A DNA stretch of 64,000 nucleotides from Brevinematales bacterium (GTDB lineage: Bacteria; Spirochaetota; Brevinematia; Brevinematales; GWF1-51-8), in NCBI GenBank assembly GCA_013177895.1, contig JABLXV010000040.1:1-64000 (forward strand), in the 5' to 3' direction. Shown here piece by piece: positions 11,401 to 41,035 of the stretch. Each line of letters starts with the position of its first letter. Position 1 is the first letter of the stretch. The translations under genes and the position numbers were made by a program. The notes beneath the pieces are model-generated. The model was not told where the DNA came from, did no database searches, and saw only the letters and a list, made by a program, of their open reading frames with translations.

Positions 11401-11427
11401 TCAAATAAATTAAAAAAATACCGATTA
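11401..11427 (+). promoter_or_regulatory. Possible sigma-28 (FliA)-type promoter for fliD
   Basis: TCAA at 11401-11404 and ACCGATTA at 11420-11427 with a 15-bp spacer resemble TAAA-N15-GCCGATAA, matching 3/4 and 6/8 bases. The location 29 bp before a late flagellar gene is appropriate. The surroundings are A-rich, so chance is a real possibility. Confidence 0.35.
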
Positions 11428-11456
11428 TTAGAAGAGAGTCTTCGGGCAGGAAAAAA

Positions 11457-13508
11457 ATGAAAATAAAGATATGGATTCTTCTTCTATCAATATGCGCCAC
11501 CGGCTTTGTCTATGCCGCAAAAGTATACGCGCCACTACCCGGAGCCAGCGATAAATTCGATACGGAAGGTACAATCCAGAAACTTCTCGAAGTTGAAAAA
11601 TACCCGATGGTGAAGCTTGAAAATCAGAATAAAGACCTGAAGATCGAGATAGAGATACTGAAAGACTTTGAAGGATTTGTTAAAGATTTCGATAACAAGA
11701 CCGCCGACCTCTATAATTACAAGTCCCCGTTTAAAGAGATGCTGGGCACTTCCTCCGATCCGTCGATTGTCGAAGCTATCGCCGACCGTAACTCGCTTAA
11801 GAAAGATTATAAGGTTAAGGTTATCCAGACGGCGAAACCCGATTCGTTTATGAGTGAATCCGTATCGCGTTATAAAATGCTCTCACCCGGAAAATTTACC
11901 ATTACTATGGGAAAGGACGTTGCCGTGATCAATTTTTACGGCGGGACGGTCGACCAGTTCGCGGCGACCATACTCGAACAGGCGGGCGATTTCCTCGAGG
12001 TGCGGGTCATCAAGGACACCGCGGATTCGTCTATAATCTATATATCCGGTAAGAAAACCGGCCAAGCCTATAAAATGATATTCCAGGGCGATCTCAAACC
12101 AATGAACGAGTTGGGCATGCTGACACAGGGTACCGCTAAGGTGGAAACAAAGATTGTCAATTTTATCCGACTGACATCACTTACGACAAATATCCCGATC
12201 ATGGATAGTAAACAGGTTGTTCTGAAGCAGGGAACCGATGCGGAAATCGACCTGTCAGCGGAAAATATCGTTATTTCACCATCTACTTATATGTCGTACG
12301 AATGTATCGTAAAAGATAAACTTCAAGCGCCGACACAAGCAGATGAAACCATGCCGAAACTCCCCGAAGAATTGATGGGTAACGTTACCGTCAGTAATTT
12401 AATCAATAAGGTAACGGTTGAGGGACCGGGACTGATCCCGTTCTTTATGGAGAAACAAACCCCTACCTCGGTGGTATCGAATTTTACACGCATTATTACC
12501 CTTATCTTTGACGACGGAACGATTATTCCCGTGAATATTTCCAAAAGCGGGATATATACGAACAACCTGATGATGCAGAGCGGCAAACGGATTGTAAAAA
12601 TGATCCTGAAAAACGAGAACACCCATCGCGATTATACCCTCAAGGATATGAAATTCGTTACCGTGATAGACGACGGCGGAATTCAGGCAAAAAATCCCAT
12701 CTCGAAGGCATGCGACGCGATTATGACTATCGACGGTATCAAAATCGTCCGCGACAATAATACTATCATCGATGTTATACAGGGCGTGACGTTTAATCTG
12801 AAACGCGAAAGCCCCGCGGATATTCTCGTATCTATCGACCACGACTACGAACTGGTCAAGAAATCCATTATGGAATGGGTCGACAGCTACGACAAAGTGA
12901 TGAGCTATCTTTCTATTCTGACAAAACCAAACCTGGATAAAACCCCGTTAAGCGAAAGACCTGATACCGCGCTCGCTAATGGTATCTACCAGACCGAATC
13001 CAGTTTTAATAACTTCAGGAATATGCTCAGAAACGCCATTATGAACGCCTATGTCACATCGCTGGGAAATCAACTGGCGGTTTTAGCGCAGGTGGGGATC
13101 TATACAAAAAAAGCCGGACAGGCGGGTATGAATTCAGATGAATTTGAAAATGTGAAGGCCGGGATATTAAAAGTAGATACGGCAGAACTCGAAGGGGCGT
13201 TAAAAACCAAGTTCGATGCCTTAGCAGAATTATTCGGAAACGATACCGACCATGATAATATCAAAGATACGGGGGTCGCGATTGCGGCGAAAAAGGTATT
13301 GGATTTCGCGCTTGGCGCCGGGGGATTTATCAAGAATAAGACCCAGAAACAAGTCGATAAAATGAAGGAAAACGAAAAGGAAATTGCGAAAATAAAGATA
13401 CATCTTGAAGACTACGAGCAGGAATTGCGTATCAAGTACGGAAAAATGAACCAAGCCATCATCCAATCACAAGCCCAGCAAAAATGGATGGAAAATAACT
13501 TTAAATAA
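11457..13508 (+). CDS. fliD: Flagellar hook-associated protein 2 (filament cap) with N-terminal signal peptide
   Basis: 683 residues. FliD caps the growing filament and guides flagellin folding. The N-terminal family block appears as PLPGASDKFDTEGTIQKLL (residues about 24-42) followed by EVEKYPM. The C-terminal amphipathic helix ends in QAQQKWMENNFK. Unusually, it is preceded by a Sec-type signal: KIK, then a hydrophobic IWILLLSICATGFVYA, with likely cleavage after VYA. No ATG, GTG or TTG lies between the signal and the FliD block and AGGA precedes this ATG, so the signal is truly encoded. FliD is normally exported by the flagellar type III apparatus without a cleaved signal. No other flagellar gene is adjacent. 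Confidence 0.85.
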   Translation: MKIKIWILLLSICATGFVYAAKVYAPLPGASDKFDTEGTIQKLLEVEKYPMVKLENQNKDLKIEIEILKDFEGFVKDFDNKTADLYNYKSPFKEMLGTSSDPSIVEAIADRNSLKKDYKVKVIQTAKPDSFMSESVSRYKMLSPGKFTITMGKDVAVINFYGGTVDQFAATILEQAGDFLEVRVIKDTADSSIIYISGKKTGQAYKMIFQGDLKPMNELGMLTQGTAKVETKIVNFIRLTSLTTNIPIMDSKQVVLKQGTDAEIDLSAENIVISPSTYMSYECIVKDKLQAPTQADETMPKLPEELMGNVTVSNLINKVTVEGPGLIPFFMEKQTPTSVVSNFTRIITLIFDDGTIIPVNISKSGIYTNNLMMQSGKRIVKMILKNENTHRDYTLKDMKFVTVIDDGGIQAKNPISKACDAIMTIDGIKIVRDNNTIIDVIQGVTFNLKRESPADILVSIDHDYELVKKSIMEWVDSYDKVMSYLSILTKPNLDKTPLSERPDTALANGIYQTESSFNNFRNMLRNAIMNAYVTSLGNQLAVLAQVGIYTKKAGQAGMNSDEFENVKAGILKVDTAELEGALKTKFDALAELFGNDTDHDNIKDTGVAIAAKKVLDFALGAGGFIKNKTQKQVDKMKENEKEIAKIKIHLEDYEQELRIKYGKMNQAIIQSQAQQKWMENNFK

Positions 13509-13909: not shown

Positions 13910-15604
13910 ATGGCAGAAAACGAGAGAGTAAAATTTGATGTAAAAAACATCAAAACGATGAACCTGAAATACCAGCGGGAAAAGCATATTAAAGAAGCGT
14001 TCGCCGCTTGGCTTTTTCTCCTGCCCAACTTTTTAGGTTTTTTGGTAGTTACATTTTTCCCTATTTTCGCGACTTTGATTTTATCATTTTCCGAATGGGA
14101 CGGTCTTTCTTATGCAAAACCTTCTGAGATAACTCTCAAGTTTTATTCCGATCAGCCCGCGGCTGAGGATATAAAAATTGAGAAGGGTACAGTTTTGTAT
14201 CTGAATACAACAAAAATTACATTTCGTAATGAAATTATTACGGTACCCTATGTTGTTAACGAAGATATTCAAATCCCGGATAATTCTCTCCAGTACGGGT
14301 TGTTTAACGTCAGTTACCTGAAAAACTGGAAAGATCCTCGTAACGTCCTCCCTGACGGTACTTTAATCATTCAGCCGATGATTGATAAAATAGAAACAAA
14401 TTACCAGAAGTATATTCGCCCTGAAGAAGTCTATTTTGACGATCAGAATATTAGTGCGATGAATATCCGGTTCGAACAGCCCCTAGGCGCACTGAGTATT
14501 TCCTATAACGGAACTCCGCAATTCTCCGGTAAGGAAATAGTAGTCACCAAGAAAACAAAAAAAGCGGAAGTTATCGCGAAAGGTACGGTGATTTTAGCCG
14601 ATTTATCGATTAAAACCCCCACCAAACAGGAAACGAAGACATGGACATATACCCTTGCTAACGATCTGATACTCAAGAAAGGCGAGACCAATGTTAAAGG
14701 TATCACTGCTCTTACCGCGAATGAGACCGGTCAGTTGGCAAAAGGTCCTTCACAGGTAATGAACAATCCTAAAAACGCAGAAGGTACTTTATTGACACTG
14801 AAAGACGGGGTTCCTCTTCCGATGAAAGTGAAGTTAGCCCAGATACCGAATATCGGAAACTTCGGTCTCCAGTTAATCGGTTTCGGCAACTTCGAAGAAC
14901 TTATCATGCGGGATACCCGCTTTAGAATGTATTTTGTCAATACATTGTTCTTTTTATTGGAAATACCTCTAGGTATGGTGCTTTCCCTGATTATGGCTCT
15001 CGCGATGAACCAGCCGTTAAAAGGTATCGTGGTCTTCCGCGTACTCTTCTTCCTTCCCGTTATTTCGAATATTGTGGCCATCGCGCTTCTATGGAGATGG
15101 ATTCTCAACTCGGATTACGGTTTCCTGAACGAGATGTTGCGGGCAATAGGAATATCTAACCCGCCGCAATGGTTCGGCGATAAAACATGGGCAAAAGTGG
15201 CGATTATTATGATGGACGTATGGAAAGGCGCCGGTTATAACATGATGCTCTATCTTGCCGGTCTCCAGGGTATTCCGCACTTCCTCTATGAAGCCGCGGA
15301 CATCGACGGCGCATCCGGATGGCAGCAGTTTATGAATATCACATGGCCTCTGCTCTCGCCGACAAATTTCTTCATTCTCATAATGGGTGTTATCGGAGGG
15401 TTTCAGGCATTCGGCTCTCAATATGTAATGACCAGCGGAGGTCCGGCAGGGTCTACCACTACTCTAGTGTACTATATTTACAATAATGCTTATAAATGGA
15501 GTAATATGGGATACGCAACAGCGATTGCGGTTATCCTGTTTATATTTGTGATGGTTATTACTGCTATCAACATGAAGCTTACAGAAGGGAATGTAGAGTA
15601 TTAA
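13910..15604 (+). CDS. ABC sugar-type permease, MalF/UgpA family, with large extracytoplasmic insertion
   Basis: 564 residues, much longer than the usual 290-320. TM1 (about residues 27-52, PNFLGFLVVTFFPIFATLIL) is followed by about 270 residues of soluble sequence and then by five further membrane segments from about residue 345. The EAA loop, which contacts the ATPase, is EAADIDGASGWQQFMNITWP (about residues 462-481). The insertion lies where MalF carries its P2 periplasmic loop, but it is longer and I see no recognisable domain in it. The partner permease follows 21 bp downstream. No substrate-binding protein or ATPase gene is adjacent, so the substrate cannot be named. Confidence 0.85.
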   Translation: MAENERVKFDVKNIKTMNLKYQREKHIKEAFAAWLFLLPNFLGFLVVTFFPIFATLILSFSEWDGLSYAKPSEITLKFYSDQPAAEDIKIEKGTVLYLNTTKITFRNEIITVPYVVNEDIQIPDNSLQYGLFNVSYLKNWKDPRNVLPDGTLIIQPMIDKIETNYQKYIRPEEVYFDDQNISAMNIRFEQPLGALSISYNGTPQFSGKEIVVTKKTKKAEVIAKGTVILADLSIKTPTKQETKTWTYTLANDLILKKGETNVKGITALTANETGQLAKGPSQVMNNPKNAEGTLLTLKDGVPLPMKVKLAQIPNIGNFGLQLIGFGNFEELIMRDTRFRMYFVNTLFFLLEIPLGMVLSLIMALAMNQPLKGIVVFRVLFFLPVISNIVAIALLWRWILNSDYGFLNEMLRAIGISNPPQWFGDKTWAKVAIIMMDVWKGAGYNMMLYLAGLQGIPHFLYEAADIDGASGWQQFMNITWPLLSPTNFFILIMGVIGGFQAFGSQYVMTSGGPAGSTTTLVYYIYNNAYKWSNMGYATAIAVILFIFVMVITAINMKLTEGNVEY

Positions 15605-37654: not shown

Positions 37655-40600
37655 TTATTCTTCCTGAAGGAATCCAAGGTTGTACAATTCGGATTTTTGG
37701 AAATGAGTAGGTTCTTTTTTGCCCTTTTCACGGCCATACACGCCGATACCTTTAATCTCATCTCCTTTTATTACAGGTACGATCATAATTTCCTCGAGAG
37801 CGGCGAGATCATCTATATCAAAACGGTCGGTCAGGTATTTCGCTTTGGTTAAATCTCCACGAATATCGACGCTCTTTTTTCGGCTCAAATATTTGATATA
37901 AATCGGGTCGTCCATCGAGAAGGACATTTCGTTCTTAAAGCCCTGATTCATCAGTTCTCCGAACTCTTCCCCGGACTTTTTCACCACCGAGATCTTACCG
38001 AAATTAAGATTATTTGCCGCTAAATCCATTGCGACATCGGCATAGGATTCGACATGACCAATCGTGCTGATTTTAACGGGGGGTTCCATAAATACTTTAT
38101 TAAAATCGATCGGCTTATGTGGTTCGATATCCTGTACCGAGCTGGTTAGTTCTGTCGGGGATTCAATTTCCTGTATCGAACCCGAAGGTTCTACAGGGAA
38201 TTCAGGGATTGTTTCACTAGCTTCGGGAGCGGGAGCCTCCTCTTCAAGATCGAGATCGATCGCGGATAATTCGCTCATATCGAGCGTGATACTATCGTCA
38301 TCTTCCGAGGCGGTTTCCGCGGAGGGCACATCCATTATCATCGCGTCAAGATCAAATTCGGGTATTTCCTGACCCTCCGGCAGATCAAAACTGCTCTCAT
38401 TATCCATTTTCGGTTGTTCCGTCATCATTGGCTCGTCAAACGTCCCTTGTTCGTCCTGGGATTCCCCCATGTCAAATTCTGGGACATCAAGGGGTTCTTC
38501 GACCTCAACTAGGTTATCCTCCATCATCGGCTCAACCGGTCCGTTGTCGTCCGCCATTTCCACATCGATCGCGGCTAATTCGTTCATATCTAATGTAATA
38601 CTATCATCGTCATCTGCGGCCTGAGTATCGGGAACATCGGCTATCATGGAATCTATATCAAACTCGGGAATTTCCATCCCGGAAGAGATACCTTCCAACA
38701 TATTTTCATTTTCGGGAGTTTCTATCGACGCCGAAGCAGGTATTCCGCCCTCCGGTTCGCTTTCAGGCGCTGTCTCAAGCGGAATCTCAAACTCGTCCAT
38801 TTCCATAGGAGTTTCCGATGGAATATCTATCTGCGCCATACCGTTTGAAGATTCAGCATCAACTTCATATTGCGACAAATCTTCTTGGGGCTCAGTGGGA
38901 ATTTCGAATTCAGGAATTTCTTCAGTCTGCCCACCGCCCATATCGAATTCGGGGGTTTCTTCCGTAGGCATCGCGCCCATATCGAATTCGGGAGTTTCTT
39001 CCGCAGGCATAGTACCCATATCGAATTCGGGGGTTTCCTCTGTCTGCACACCGCCCATATCGAATTCGGGAGTTTCCTCTGTCTGCATACCGCCCATATC
39101 GAATTCGGGGGTTTCCTCCGCAGGCATCGCGCCCATATCGAATTCAGGGGTTTCTTCCGCAGGCATCGCGCCCATATCGAACTCGGGAGCGTCCTGTCCG
39201 ATGTCTGTGAGTGATATTTCAGGAGATGTCATCGGGTTTTCAGAGGTTTCTAGTTCGTCCAATTGTCCAATAGAGTTTTCATCGAAACTGACGATATTTT
39301 CCTCAATATCGCCCATCCCTGCCATAATATCTTCTTGTTTTATATCGCCTTCATTCATTTCTTCGGAGAACGCAAATTCATCCGCTTGAGCGGATTCCAT
39401 ATGGGGTTCAATTTCTGCGTCGGAAACTTCCTGAATACCTGCGTCCCCGGGCATCTCTATCGTTTCTTCACCGATCAACTCGTTATCGTCCTCGGAAAGC
39501 ATATCAAATACCGGCTCATTTGATTCGGGTGCGGCTTCCCCGGGTTCCGTCATCATATCGAAGGAGAAATCCTCTCCGGCGGGAGCGGCTGAGAATTCGC
39601 CGTTATCCTCGACTCCCTGCAATATCCTTTCCTGCTCGGCAAACATCTGGGTACTGGAGGGTTGTTCTTCCGTCATCGCAGGCTGGGAAAATTCATCAAA
39701 CGAAGGTTCGTTCCATTCGGGAACCGCGGATTCACCGGAAACCACAGGTTCGTTAAAATCGGGGGCGGCAATCTCGCCGGGCATTTCAGGCTCATCCCAC
39801 TCTGGAATGGAGGCTTCTTCCCCTGCCGATGCCGAACCGTAGTCTTCAGGTGTAAAATCGCTTTCACCGGGAGCCTCATACATCGATGAAGGTAGTTCAT
39901 CCTCCGAAGGCGACCATTTCTCGTCTATCGGCATTTCCGTCAGCGAATCGGAACTGGTCATAATCATCCGCTCTATTCCGTTACTGGCTTCGCTTTTACT
40001 GTATGTTTCGTTACGCTCGATATCGTCGACAAGATCCTCAATCTCTTCATTTGAAGGGATACTGAACTTTTTCGACGGGGCGACCGCTTCTTCTTCGATA
40101 TCCTCCTGCATATCCGAAAATCTTTCTTCTTCGGAAAATGCTTTCGGTATATAATAATGCTCTTCGGTGGCCTCGCGTCCTGTCTGGACAAGCGCGAAGA
40201 CGAGCAATCCCAGAAGGATAATATTAATGATGATGAACAGAATAGCTTCCCACGGCAGGAAGTGGTCGTCTTTTGCCATATGCACGATCTTTAAACCCAT
40301 CAGGCGTGAAATAACCCCGATGGTCGTGCCCTTAGCTTCTTCCTTACTCTTCTGGGAAGACTGGGAATCATAATAATTGATTATTTTATTGATCGTGTTC
40401 GTATCGACCTGTTTAGACGCGAGGAACAGGTAATTATCGGCTGAGAAAGGAATAATCAAATCTTTTTCGGTTATTCCGGTTAATAATCTATCTGTTTTAT
40501 AATAGATGAATAGATAACCCTGGGGTGACGTATCGCCGGACGTCTCATATATAGGAAGGATGGAGATAAATTCGATGTTGTTTAAAAAATAATAGTAAGG

Positions 40601-41035
40601 GTCTTTTGTTTGAGAAAAGTGGGTTTTTATTTCGGTGAGTAATTGATCCTTTATCTTTTTGGTGATAATTTCCGTCTCGACTGTAGAGAAATTCACCGCG
40701 CCAAAGCTGTCGATAAGTTGTATTTTATTGCATGATTTGATATGTTTCCTGATTTCTTCGAACTGCGGAATATACTGGCGGATATCGTCGCCCATAGCCT
40801 GACTGAAGAAAATATTCTTAACCAGTTTTTCATTCGCCAACGTAGTTACTTCAGTACCTACGTCCTTTAGATTACTGACAATCGCGGCGTTAATAGGCAT
40901 CGTTTTATTAGAGATAAAGCTGTCGTAGGATTTGCTGAAAATCCCCATACGATTCCGCGCGAAGTAGACAATAATAAATAAAGAGGCGATGGCAAAAACA
41001 AGTAAAACGATTAAGAGAATTCTCTTATATACCAT
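37655..41035 (-). CDS. Large membrane sensor-like protein with acidic repeat linker and GAF-like C-terminus
   Basis: 1126 residues. TM1 (about 5-27) and TM2 (about 262-284) enclose an extracytoplasmic domain of about 230 residues that looks Cache-like. A very acidic, Pro/Met/Ser-rich region of about 640 residues follows, almost certainly disordered, with seven copies of a 13-residue unit of the type PEFDMGAMPAEET. The last 170 residues form a folded domain resembling GAF (ISVVKKSGEEFGEL, then MIVPVIKGDEIKGIGVYGR). No kinase, cyclase or MCP output is seen, so the linker and GAF part may act by binding partners. The gene is downstream of a 139-bp gap holding the nifJ terminator. Confidence 0.82.
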   Translation of the reverse strand: MVYKRILLIVLLVFAIASLFIIVYFARNRMGIFSKSYDSFISNKTMPINAAIVSNLKDVGTEVTTLANEKLVKNIFFSQAMGDDIRQYIPQFEEIRKHIKSCNKIQLIDSFGAVNFSTVETEIITKKIKDQLLTEIKTHFSQTKDPYYYFLNNIEFISILPIYETSGDTSPQGYLFIYYKTDRLLTGITEKDLIIPFSADNYLFLASKQVDTNTINKIINYYDSQSSQKSKEEAKGTTIGVISRLMGLKIVHMAKDDHFLPWEAILFIIINIILLGLLVFALVQTGREATEEHYYIPKAFSEEERFSDMQEDIEEEAVAPSKKFSIPSNEEIEDLVDDIERNETYSKSEASNGIERMIMTSSDSLTEMPIDEKWSPSEDELPSSMYEAPGESDFTPEDYGSASAGEEASIPEWDEPEMPGEIAAPDFNEPVVSGESAVPEWNEPSFDEFSQPAMTEEQPSSTQMFAEQERILQGVEDNGEFSAAPAGEDFSFDMMTEPGEAAPESNEPVFDMLSEDDNELIGEETIEMPGDAGIQEVSDAEIEPHMESAQADEFAFSEEMNEGDIKQEDIMAGMGDIEENIVSFDENSIGQLDELETSENPMTSPEISLTDIGQDAPEFDMGAMPAEETPEFDMGAMPAEETPEFDMGGMQTEETPEFDMGGVQTEETPEFDMGTMPAEETPEFDMGAMPTEETPEFDMGGGQTEEIPEFEIPTEPQEDLSQYEVDAESSNGMAQIDIPSETPMEMDEFEIPLETAPESEPEGGIPASASIETPENENMLEGISSGMEIPEFDIDSMIADVPDTQAADDDDSITLDMNELAAIDVEMADDNGPVEPMMEDNLVEVEEPLDVPEFDMGESQDEQGTFDEPMMTEQPKMDNESSFDLPEGQEIPEFDLDAMIMDVPSAETASEDDDSITLDMSELSAIDLDLEEEAPAPEASETIPEFPVEPSGSIQEIESPTELTSSVQDIEPHKPIDFNKVFMEPPVKISTIGHVESYADVAMDLAANNLNFGKISVVKKSGEEFGELMNQGFKNEMSFSMDDPIYIKYLSRKKSVDIRGDLTKAKYLTDRFDIDDLAALEEIMIVPVIKGDEIKGIGVYGREKGKKEPTHFQKSELYNLGFLQEE
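38937..39192 (-). repeat. 39-bp in-frame tandem repeat array
   Basis: Copies begin (plus-strand CCCATATCGAA edge) at 38937, 38976, 39015, 39054, 39093, 39132 and 39171, exactly 39 bp apart. Each encodes a 13-residue unit (PEFDMG core plus a variable half such as AMPAEET or GVQTEET). The seventh copy decays after about 20 bp and a degenerate copy lies on the other side. Being in frame and contiguous it is a coding repeat, liable to copy-number change. Confidence 0.92.

Follow-up and report, generated by a model that had tools for sequence, protein, structure and literature searches.

The window analysed here, i.e. the whole stretch of 64,000 nucleotides, carries on its forward strand an open reading frame (positions 11457–13508) for a protein of 683 aa, annotated as the precursor of the flagellar filament cap protein FliD. 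Pfam analysis of this ORF identified a FliD_N domain (PF02465) at residues 33–128 (11553–11840, + strand; 1.1e-13, 52 bits versus a curated cut-off of 24.8) and a FliD_C domain (PF07195) at residues 418–672 (12708–13472, + strand; 3.1e-38, 132 bits versus a curated cut-off of 25.4). The protein also matched the NCBIfam model NF005188 (FliD) with a value of 6e-102, yet below the equivalog cut-off of that model. The source genome (G000) contains one fliD gene, since searches with the FliD_C and FliD_N profiles found no second, leaderless FliD elsewhere in it.

An AlphaFold2 model built from 15 sequences of the class Brevinematia (mean pLDDT 82.5) revealed a long N-terminal helix (residues 36–86) and a C-terminal helix (residues 624–681), which represent the terminal helices of D0/D1, while residues 1–31 are unstructured (pLDDT of about 35). 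When the model was compared with the PDB using Foldseek, the best matches were all FliD structures (E values down to 3e-20), the top ones having TM-scores of 0.38–0.49 by query and 0.6–0.7 by target. The window protein thus displays the fold expected of FliD, composed of D0/D1 terminal helices and a D2/D3 plate (AlphaFold2, Foldseek). The gene is flanked by lipoate and glycine-cleavage genes and by an ABC transporter; this neighbourhood was not retained beyond the genus in the relatives checked and is therefore not informative. Two other features of the window deserve mention: a sugar-type ABC permease (13910–15604) with an insert of about 250 residues after membrane helix 1, ahead of the BPD_transp_1 domain, and, on the complementary strand (37655–41035), a protein of 1126 aa that has a membrane segment at its N-terminus and a series of near-identical AEETPEFDMG repeats.

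The fliD reading frame opens with MKIKIWILLLSICATGFVYA|AKVYAPLPGAS..., of which the part MKIKIWILLLSICATGFVYA (11457–11516, + strand) has the build of a Sec-type signal peptide: a KIK n-region, a core of some 15 uncharged residues and the site V-Y-A|A. The segment that follows contains AKVYAPLPGASDKFDTEGTIQKLLEVEK and AKVYAPLPGASDKFDTEG. Signal peptidase I is predicted to cut after codon 20 (VYA|A; 11516/11517) or after codon 21, and the predicted mature protein spans 11517–13505 (+ strand). In an alignment, its first residue would lie within a few residues of the start of the leaderless spirochaete proteins, which begin like MSDISIPGVTSKYNTEE (compare MSDISIPGVTSKYNTEE with AAKVYAPLPGASDKFDTEG). 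The next in-frame start codons, ATG at codon 51 and GTG at codon 52, are both situated within the first long helix, and therefore no standard start (ATG, GTG or TTG) can bypass the leader. A previous sequence-only reading of this DNA had proposed such a signal (KIK, hydrophobic core, VYA), followed by the canonical FliD N-terminal block at a mature start near residue 22, with no internal start that would avoid it; these proposals agree well with our data. The span that it gave for the signal (11457–11540) includes about eight codons of the predicted mature protein.

The signal was evaluated with a rule-based score, and, by these rules only, it has a positively charged n-region, a hydrophobic uncharged core, small residues at −3 and −1 and a true start. 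The test was positive for all 16 FliD proteins detected in Brevinematia, as compared with 17 of 385 short background ORFs, and for none of the canonical FliDs tested, with the exception of one spurious distal TTG in L196. By this measure, the leader goes beyond chance. The cores of the class leaders comprise approximately 12–18 residues, and in almost all of them a cut after A, S or G (−1) is possible immediately ahead of the canonical N-terminus; the W or F found at −3 in L006, L007 and L015 is not ideal for signal peptidase I.

The expression signals of the gene are also positioned for the leader ATG. A Shine-Dalgarno sequence (AGGA; 11448–11451, + strand) is located 5 nt ahead of this codon, and several relatives within the class carry purine-rich, often AGGAGG-like, sites at the matching place. 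Further upstream is a sigma-28 (FliA)-type promoter-like site, TCAAATAA-N11-ACCGATTA (11401–11427, + strand), which has the conserved CCGA(T/A) core and a weak −35 part. Among the 16 class fliD genes, 15 have this FliA-type −10 core at −33 to −57 from the leader ATG, versus 2.4 expected from shuffled sequences; the pattern was spotted on eight of these genes and then found in seven of the eight others. FliA-type sigma factors occur throughout the class, including the source genome (the match in G017 falls under the cut-off), and fliD is probably transcribed together with the late flagellar genes from a FliA promoter, as judged from these sites.

The class sample consisted of 18 Brevinematia genomes, with relatives named "Brevinematales bacterium" (MAGs) and Spirochaetes bacterium GWF1_51_8, i.e. 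a spirochaetal lineage. FliD was detectable in 16 of them (five families, eight genera), and went undetected in G002 and G016, whose assemblies are 73% and 84% complete. A signal-like leader precedes FliD in each of these 16 genomes. Outside the class, the FliD N-termini were read in 95 genomes of the phylum (in G137 a contig end falls at the canonical start), and a leader was found in only two, G030 and G237. Orthologues without the signal, which the sequence-only reading had named as evidence against its proposal, therefore number 0/16 within the lineage and 93/95 elsewhere in the phylum. The window protein resembles a regular FliD in being encoded by one gene, alongside flagellins, FlgK, FlgL and the export gate. 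It departs from the expectation that FliD, as a type III substrate exported unprocessed, has no signal peptide. Because all 16 FliDs of the class carry the leader, we classify the protein as a homologue of FliD that is probably the cap but has another export signal, rather than as an ordinary FliD.

Signal peptides change rapidly in sequence while their hydrophobicity stays constant, and the FliD leaders follow this pattern. Between G000 and G003, leader codons 2–20 differ by 14 nonsynonymous and 2 synonymous changes, as opposed to 4 nonsynonymous and 14 synonymous changes in the 40 codons after the leader. Leader identity within families amounts to 18–75%, versus 52–95% over the following 94 columns. 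The leaders thus drift faster than the mature part and retain their hydrophobic character. In a quick tree of FliD sequences without leaders, which contains long branches, the class formed one clade (SH-aLRT 97), neighboured by the leaderless G027 together with the leader-bearing G030 (SH-aLRT 84). Given this neighbourhood, the leader may have had more than one origin.

Several individual genomes show particular features of the gene. The fliD gene of G030 adjoins two flagellin genes. The homologue of G237 (L164, G237:C8) is a 570-aa protein in which a lipoprotein-like leader (LVICCDNSS) and then a spacer precede the FliD domain; flagellin was not detected in this genome (96% complete), and the protein is possibly a repurposed cap protein, a probable lipoprotein by its sequence. 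In G005 (L005/L168) a repeat-like insertion (translated ...CHPEENERSHWFDYNGKILHVVQNDK...) lies directly 5′ of the leader and obscures the exact fliD start. In the single-contig genome G007 the gene (L170:9371–11035) is broken: homology ends near residue 542, beyond which a short piece is found in a different frame; the C-terminal end is lost, and unrelated ORFs follow.

The remaining flagellar components were well represented: flagellins, FlaA (2–4 matches per genome), hook/rod-type proteins and FlhA were each found in 18/18 class genomes. The sequence-only reading had made its proposal dependent on periplasmic flagella, and the spirochaetal affiliation of the lineage, together with the presence of FlaA throughout the class, suggests that the flagella are indeed periplasmic. 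FlgK, FlgL and FlgE of G000, G004, G006 and G013 (four families), the flagellins of G000, G004 and G006, and FlgD of G000 and G006 all begin at the canonical start, without a leader (the identities of the G000 axial proteins were verified by Pfam), whereas FlaA of G000 and G006 has one. The idea that leaders are a general property of axial proteins was accordingly ruled out for the genomes read. The presence of FlhA throughout the class argues that type III export persists; judging from these sequences, this route remains in place, and of the axial proteins inspected FliD alone deviates. The flhA gene of the source genome (G000:C79:13114–15077) is split over two overlapping frames (matches 1–157 and 157–656), which on the sequence is a frameshift or sequence error.

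Flagellin-like proteins with a Sec-type leader of their own were also observed. They are encoded outside the window at L115:892–1848 (G000:C13), where an adjacent paralogue is present, and at L171 (G003) and L172 (G001). They were found only in genus g1; G002 gave a weak match. The D1 part of Flagellin_N was matched with 5e-14 and Flagellin_C weakly, and there are seemingly two flagellin-D1-like segments.

We consider it reasonably likely, on the strength of these sequence comparisons, that FliD of Brevinematia is exported by Sec, cleaved by signal peptidase I and caps the filament from the periplasm. FliD would be synthesised with a Sec signal peptide that can be cleaved off; SecYEG would transport this precursor across the inner membrane, and signal peptidase I would remove about 20 residues from it. 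The mature protein, whose N-terminus would resemble that of an ordinary FliD, would fold in the periplasm, arrive from outside at the hook-filament junction or at the tip of the periplasmic filament and cap it; flagellins and the proteins of the hook-filament junction would still pass through the flagellar type III channel. The sequences themselves show the leader, its conservation in the class, the leaderless starts of the other axial proteins inspected, the FliD fold and one fliD per genome alongside flagellins and FlhA, whereas export by Sec, cleavage, diffusion to the filament tip and a role as cap are inferred. Capping by this route is plausible because spirochaete filaments grow within the periplasm, because FlaA, an accepted Sec-delivered filament component of spirochaetes, already reaches the filament in this way (PMC9254593), and because externally supplied capping proteins can act: according to PMC6066329, which cites Ikeda et al., such proteins can act when added to the medium. 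FliD supplied from outside is known to work in Salmonella. The N-terminal loop of FliD participates in flagellin folding at the cap (PMC12221982), so cleavage that restores an N-terminus of native length would make sense. Leptospira FliD appears in a table of a homology and fold-recognition step (PMC2387172). Several points count against the proposal. FliD elsewhere has, to our knowledge, always been taken as a type III substrate. G237, moreover, keeps a FliD-like probable lipoprotein while flagellins are undetected, so an exported FliD need not be a cap. The bulky −3 residues of L006, L007 and L015, the NF005188 match under the equivalog cut-off and the fact that an anchor and a cleaved signal look alike in sequence also speak against it. 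Of the earlier suggestion of a different assembly route, the Sec-type signal is therefore supported, and the route is the best explanation of the sequence data, with a repurposed periplasmic FliD as the other possibility.

That second possibility is the main rival, although we regard it as rather unlikely: FliD would be exported by Sec and would serve not as the tip cap but as a periplasmic derivative of FliD involved in coating, tethering or otherwise servicing the filament in the manner of FlaA, the filament being capless or capped otherwise. The several FlaA matches per class genome, as a known Sec-delivered filament protein, the Sec-signalled flagellin-like proteins of genus g1 and the retention of a signal-bearing homologue by G237, in which no flagellin was detected, speak for it. 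On the other hand, the protein is the sole FliD in each genome, it retains the N- and C-terminal helices from which D0/D1 of the cap is built, FliD structures were matched over its length, its FliA-type promoter resembles that of a late flagellar gene, and no other cap candidates were seen.

An uncleaved leader, acting as an N-terminal anchor that keeps FliD at the inner membrane, e.g. as a scaffold, appears improbable. One hydrophobic segment behind a positive n-region would be able to anchor a protein, and a cleaved signal cannot be told from an anchor by sequence; however, the cores are short and almost all have a small residue at −1, and the cut site falls just ahead of the canonical N-terminus, at the spacing predicted for a removable leader. 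It is similarly improbable that the hydrophobic N-terminus is an atypical signal recognised by the type III gate of the flagellum, with FliD still travelling through the channel. A short hydrophobic N-terminal export signal is carried by early rod and hook subunits (PMC8983047), but this known signal consists of a few small non-polar residues on early subunits, whereas FliD has a full n-h-c signal peptide; furthermore, no such segment was seen in the remaining axial proteins inspected from the same genomes, and in the rest of the phylum FliD as a rule lacks a leader. Finally, although a minority of random ORF starts look signal-like (17/385, as above), an artefact caused by a wrong start codon or chance extension of the ORF was rejected as having almost no probability, since G000 and G001 contain no standard alternative start that skips the leader, the leader is class-wide despite strong divergence, and the ribosome-binding site and promoter are placed for the leader ATG.

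The Sec-delivered cap that we favour can be set against several known systems. With the FliD/HAP2 cap (PF02465 and PF07195; spirochaete type NF005188) the Brevinematia protein shares the domain order, fold, single copy, D0/D1 helices and late-gene type promoter. FliD/HAP2 elsewhere, however, begins with the D0 segment itself and relies on flagellar type III export, whereas the Brevinematia protein has a Sec-type leader. FlgH, FlgI, FlgA and FlhE are Sec-exported flagellar proteins of Gram-negative bacteria, and Sec use would be common to them and to Brevinematia FliD; unlike FliD, they are ring, ring-assembly or periplasmic chaperone proteins outside the distal axial structure. The sheath protein FlaA, present in the same genomes, is likewise a component of the filament that has a signal peptide and reaches the periplasm through Sec (PMC9254593), but it is unrelated to FliD, lies on the outside of the filament and is neither an axial or cap protein nor a type III substrate. 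OrgC of the Salmonella SPI-1 injectisome is described in PMC6066329 as a cap-like assembly factor that works when supplied externally; it differs from Brevinematia FliD in being a natural type III substrate and in having a different fold.

No earlier report of a FliD with a signal peptide or of its export by Sec was found in the literature searched on FliD, periplasmic flagella and Brevinematales, which covered few subscription journals, and Sec-type delivery, as suggested by the sequences, is probably a previously unreported route for this part of the flagellum. Distal axial flagellar proteins are, as far as we know, thought to reach their place only via the channel of the flagellum itself. 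With a signal peptide on the filament cap throughout the class, Brevinematia would provide an exception in nature to this channel-only delivery, made possible by flagella that never leave the periplasm. With about an even chance of being correct, a broader picture can be drawn of a two-route flagellum, in which flagellin would come through the channel and the cap from the periplasm by Sec, capping would be uncoupled from the order of type III substrates, broken filaments could possibly be recapped, and the Sec-signalled flagellin-like proteins of genus g1 may join from outside. The idea of a Sec route is directly testable in cultured Brevinematales such as Thermospira aquatica. If true, it would mean that delivery of the cap is separable from type III export, which bears on how caps are loaded and replaced.
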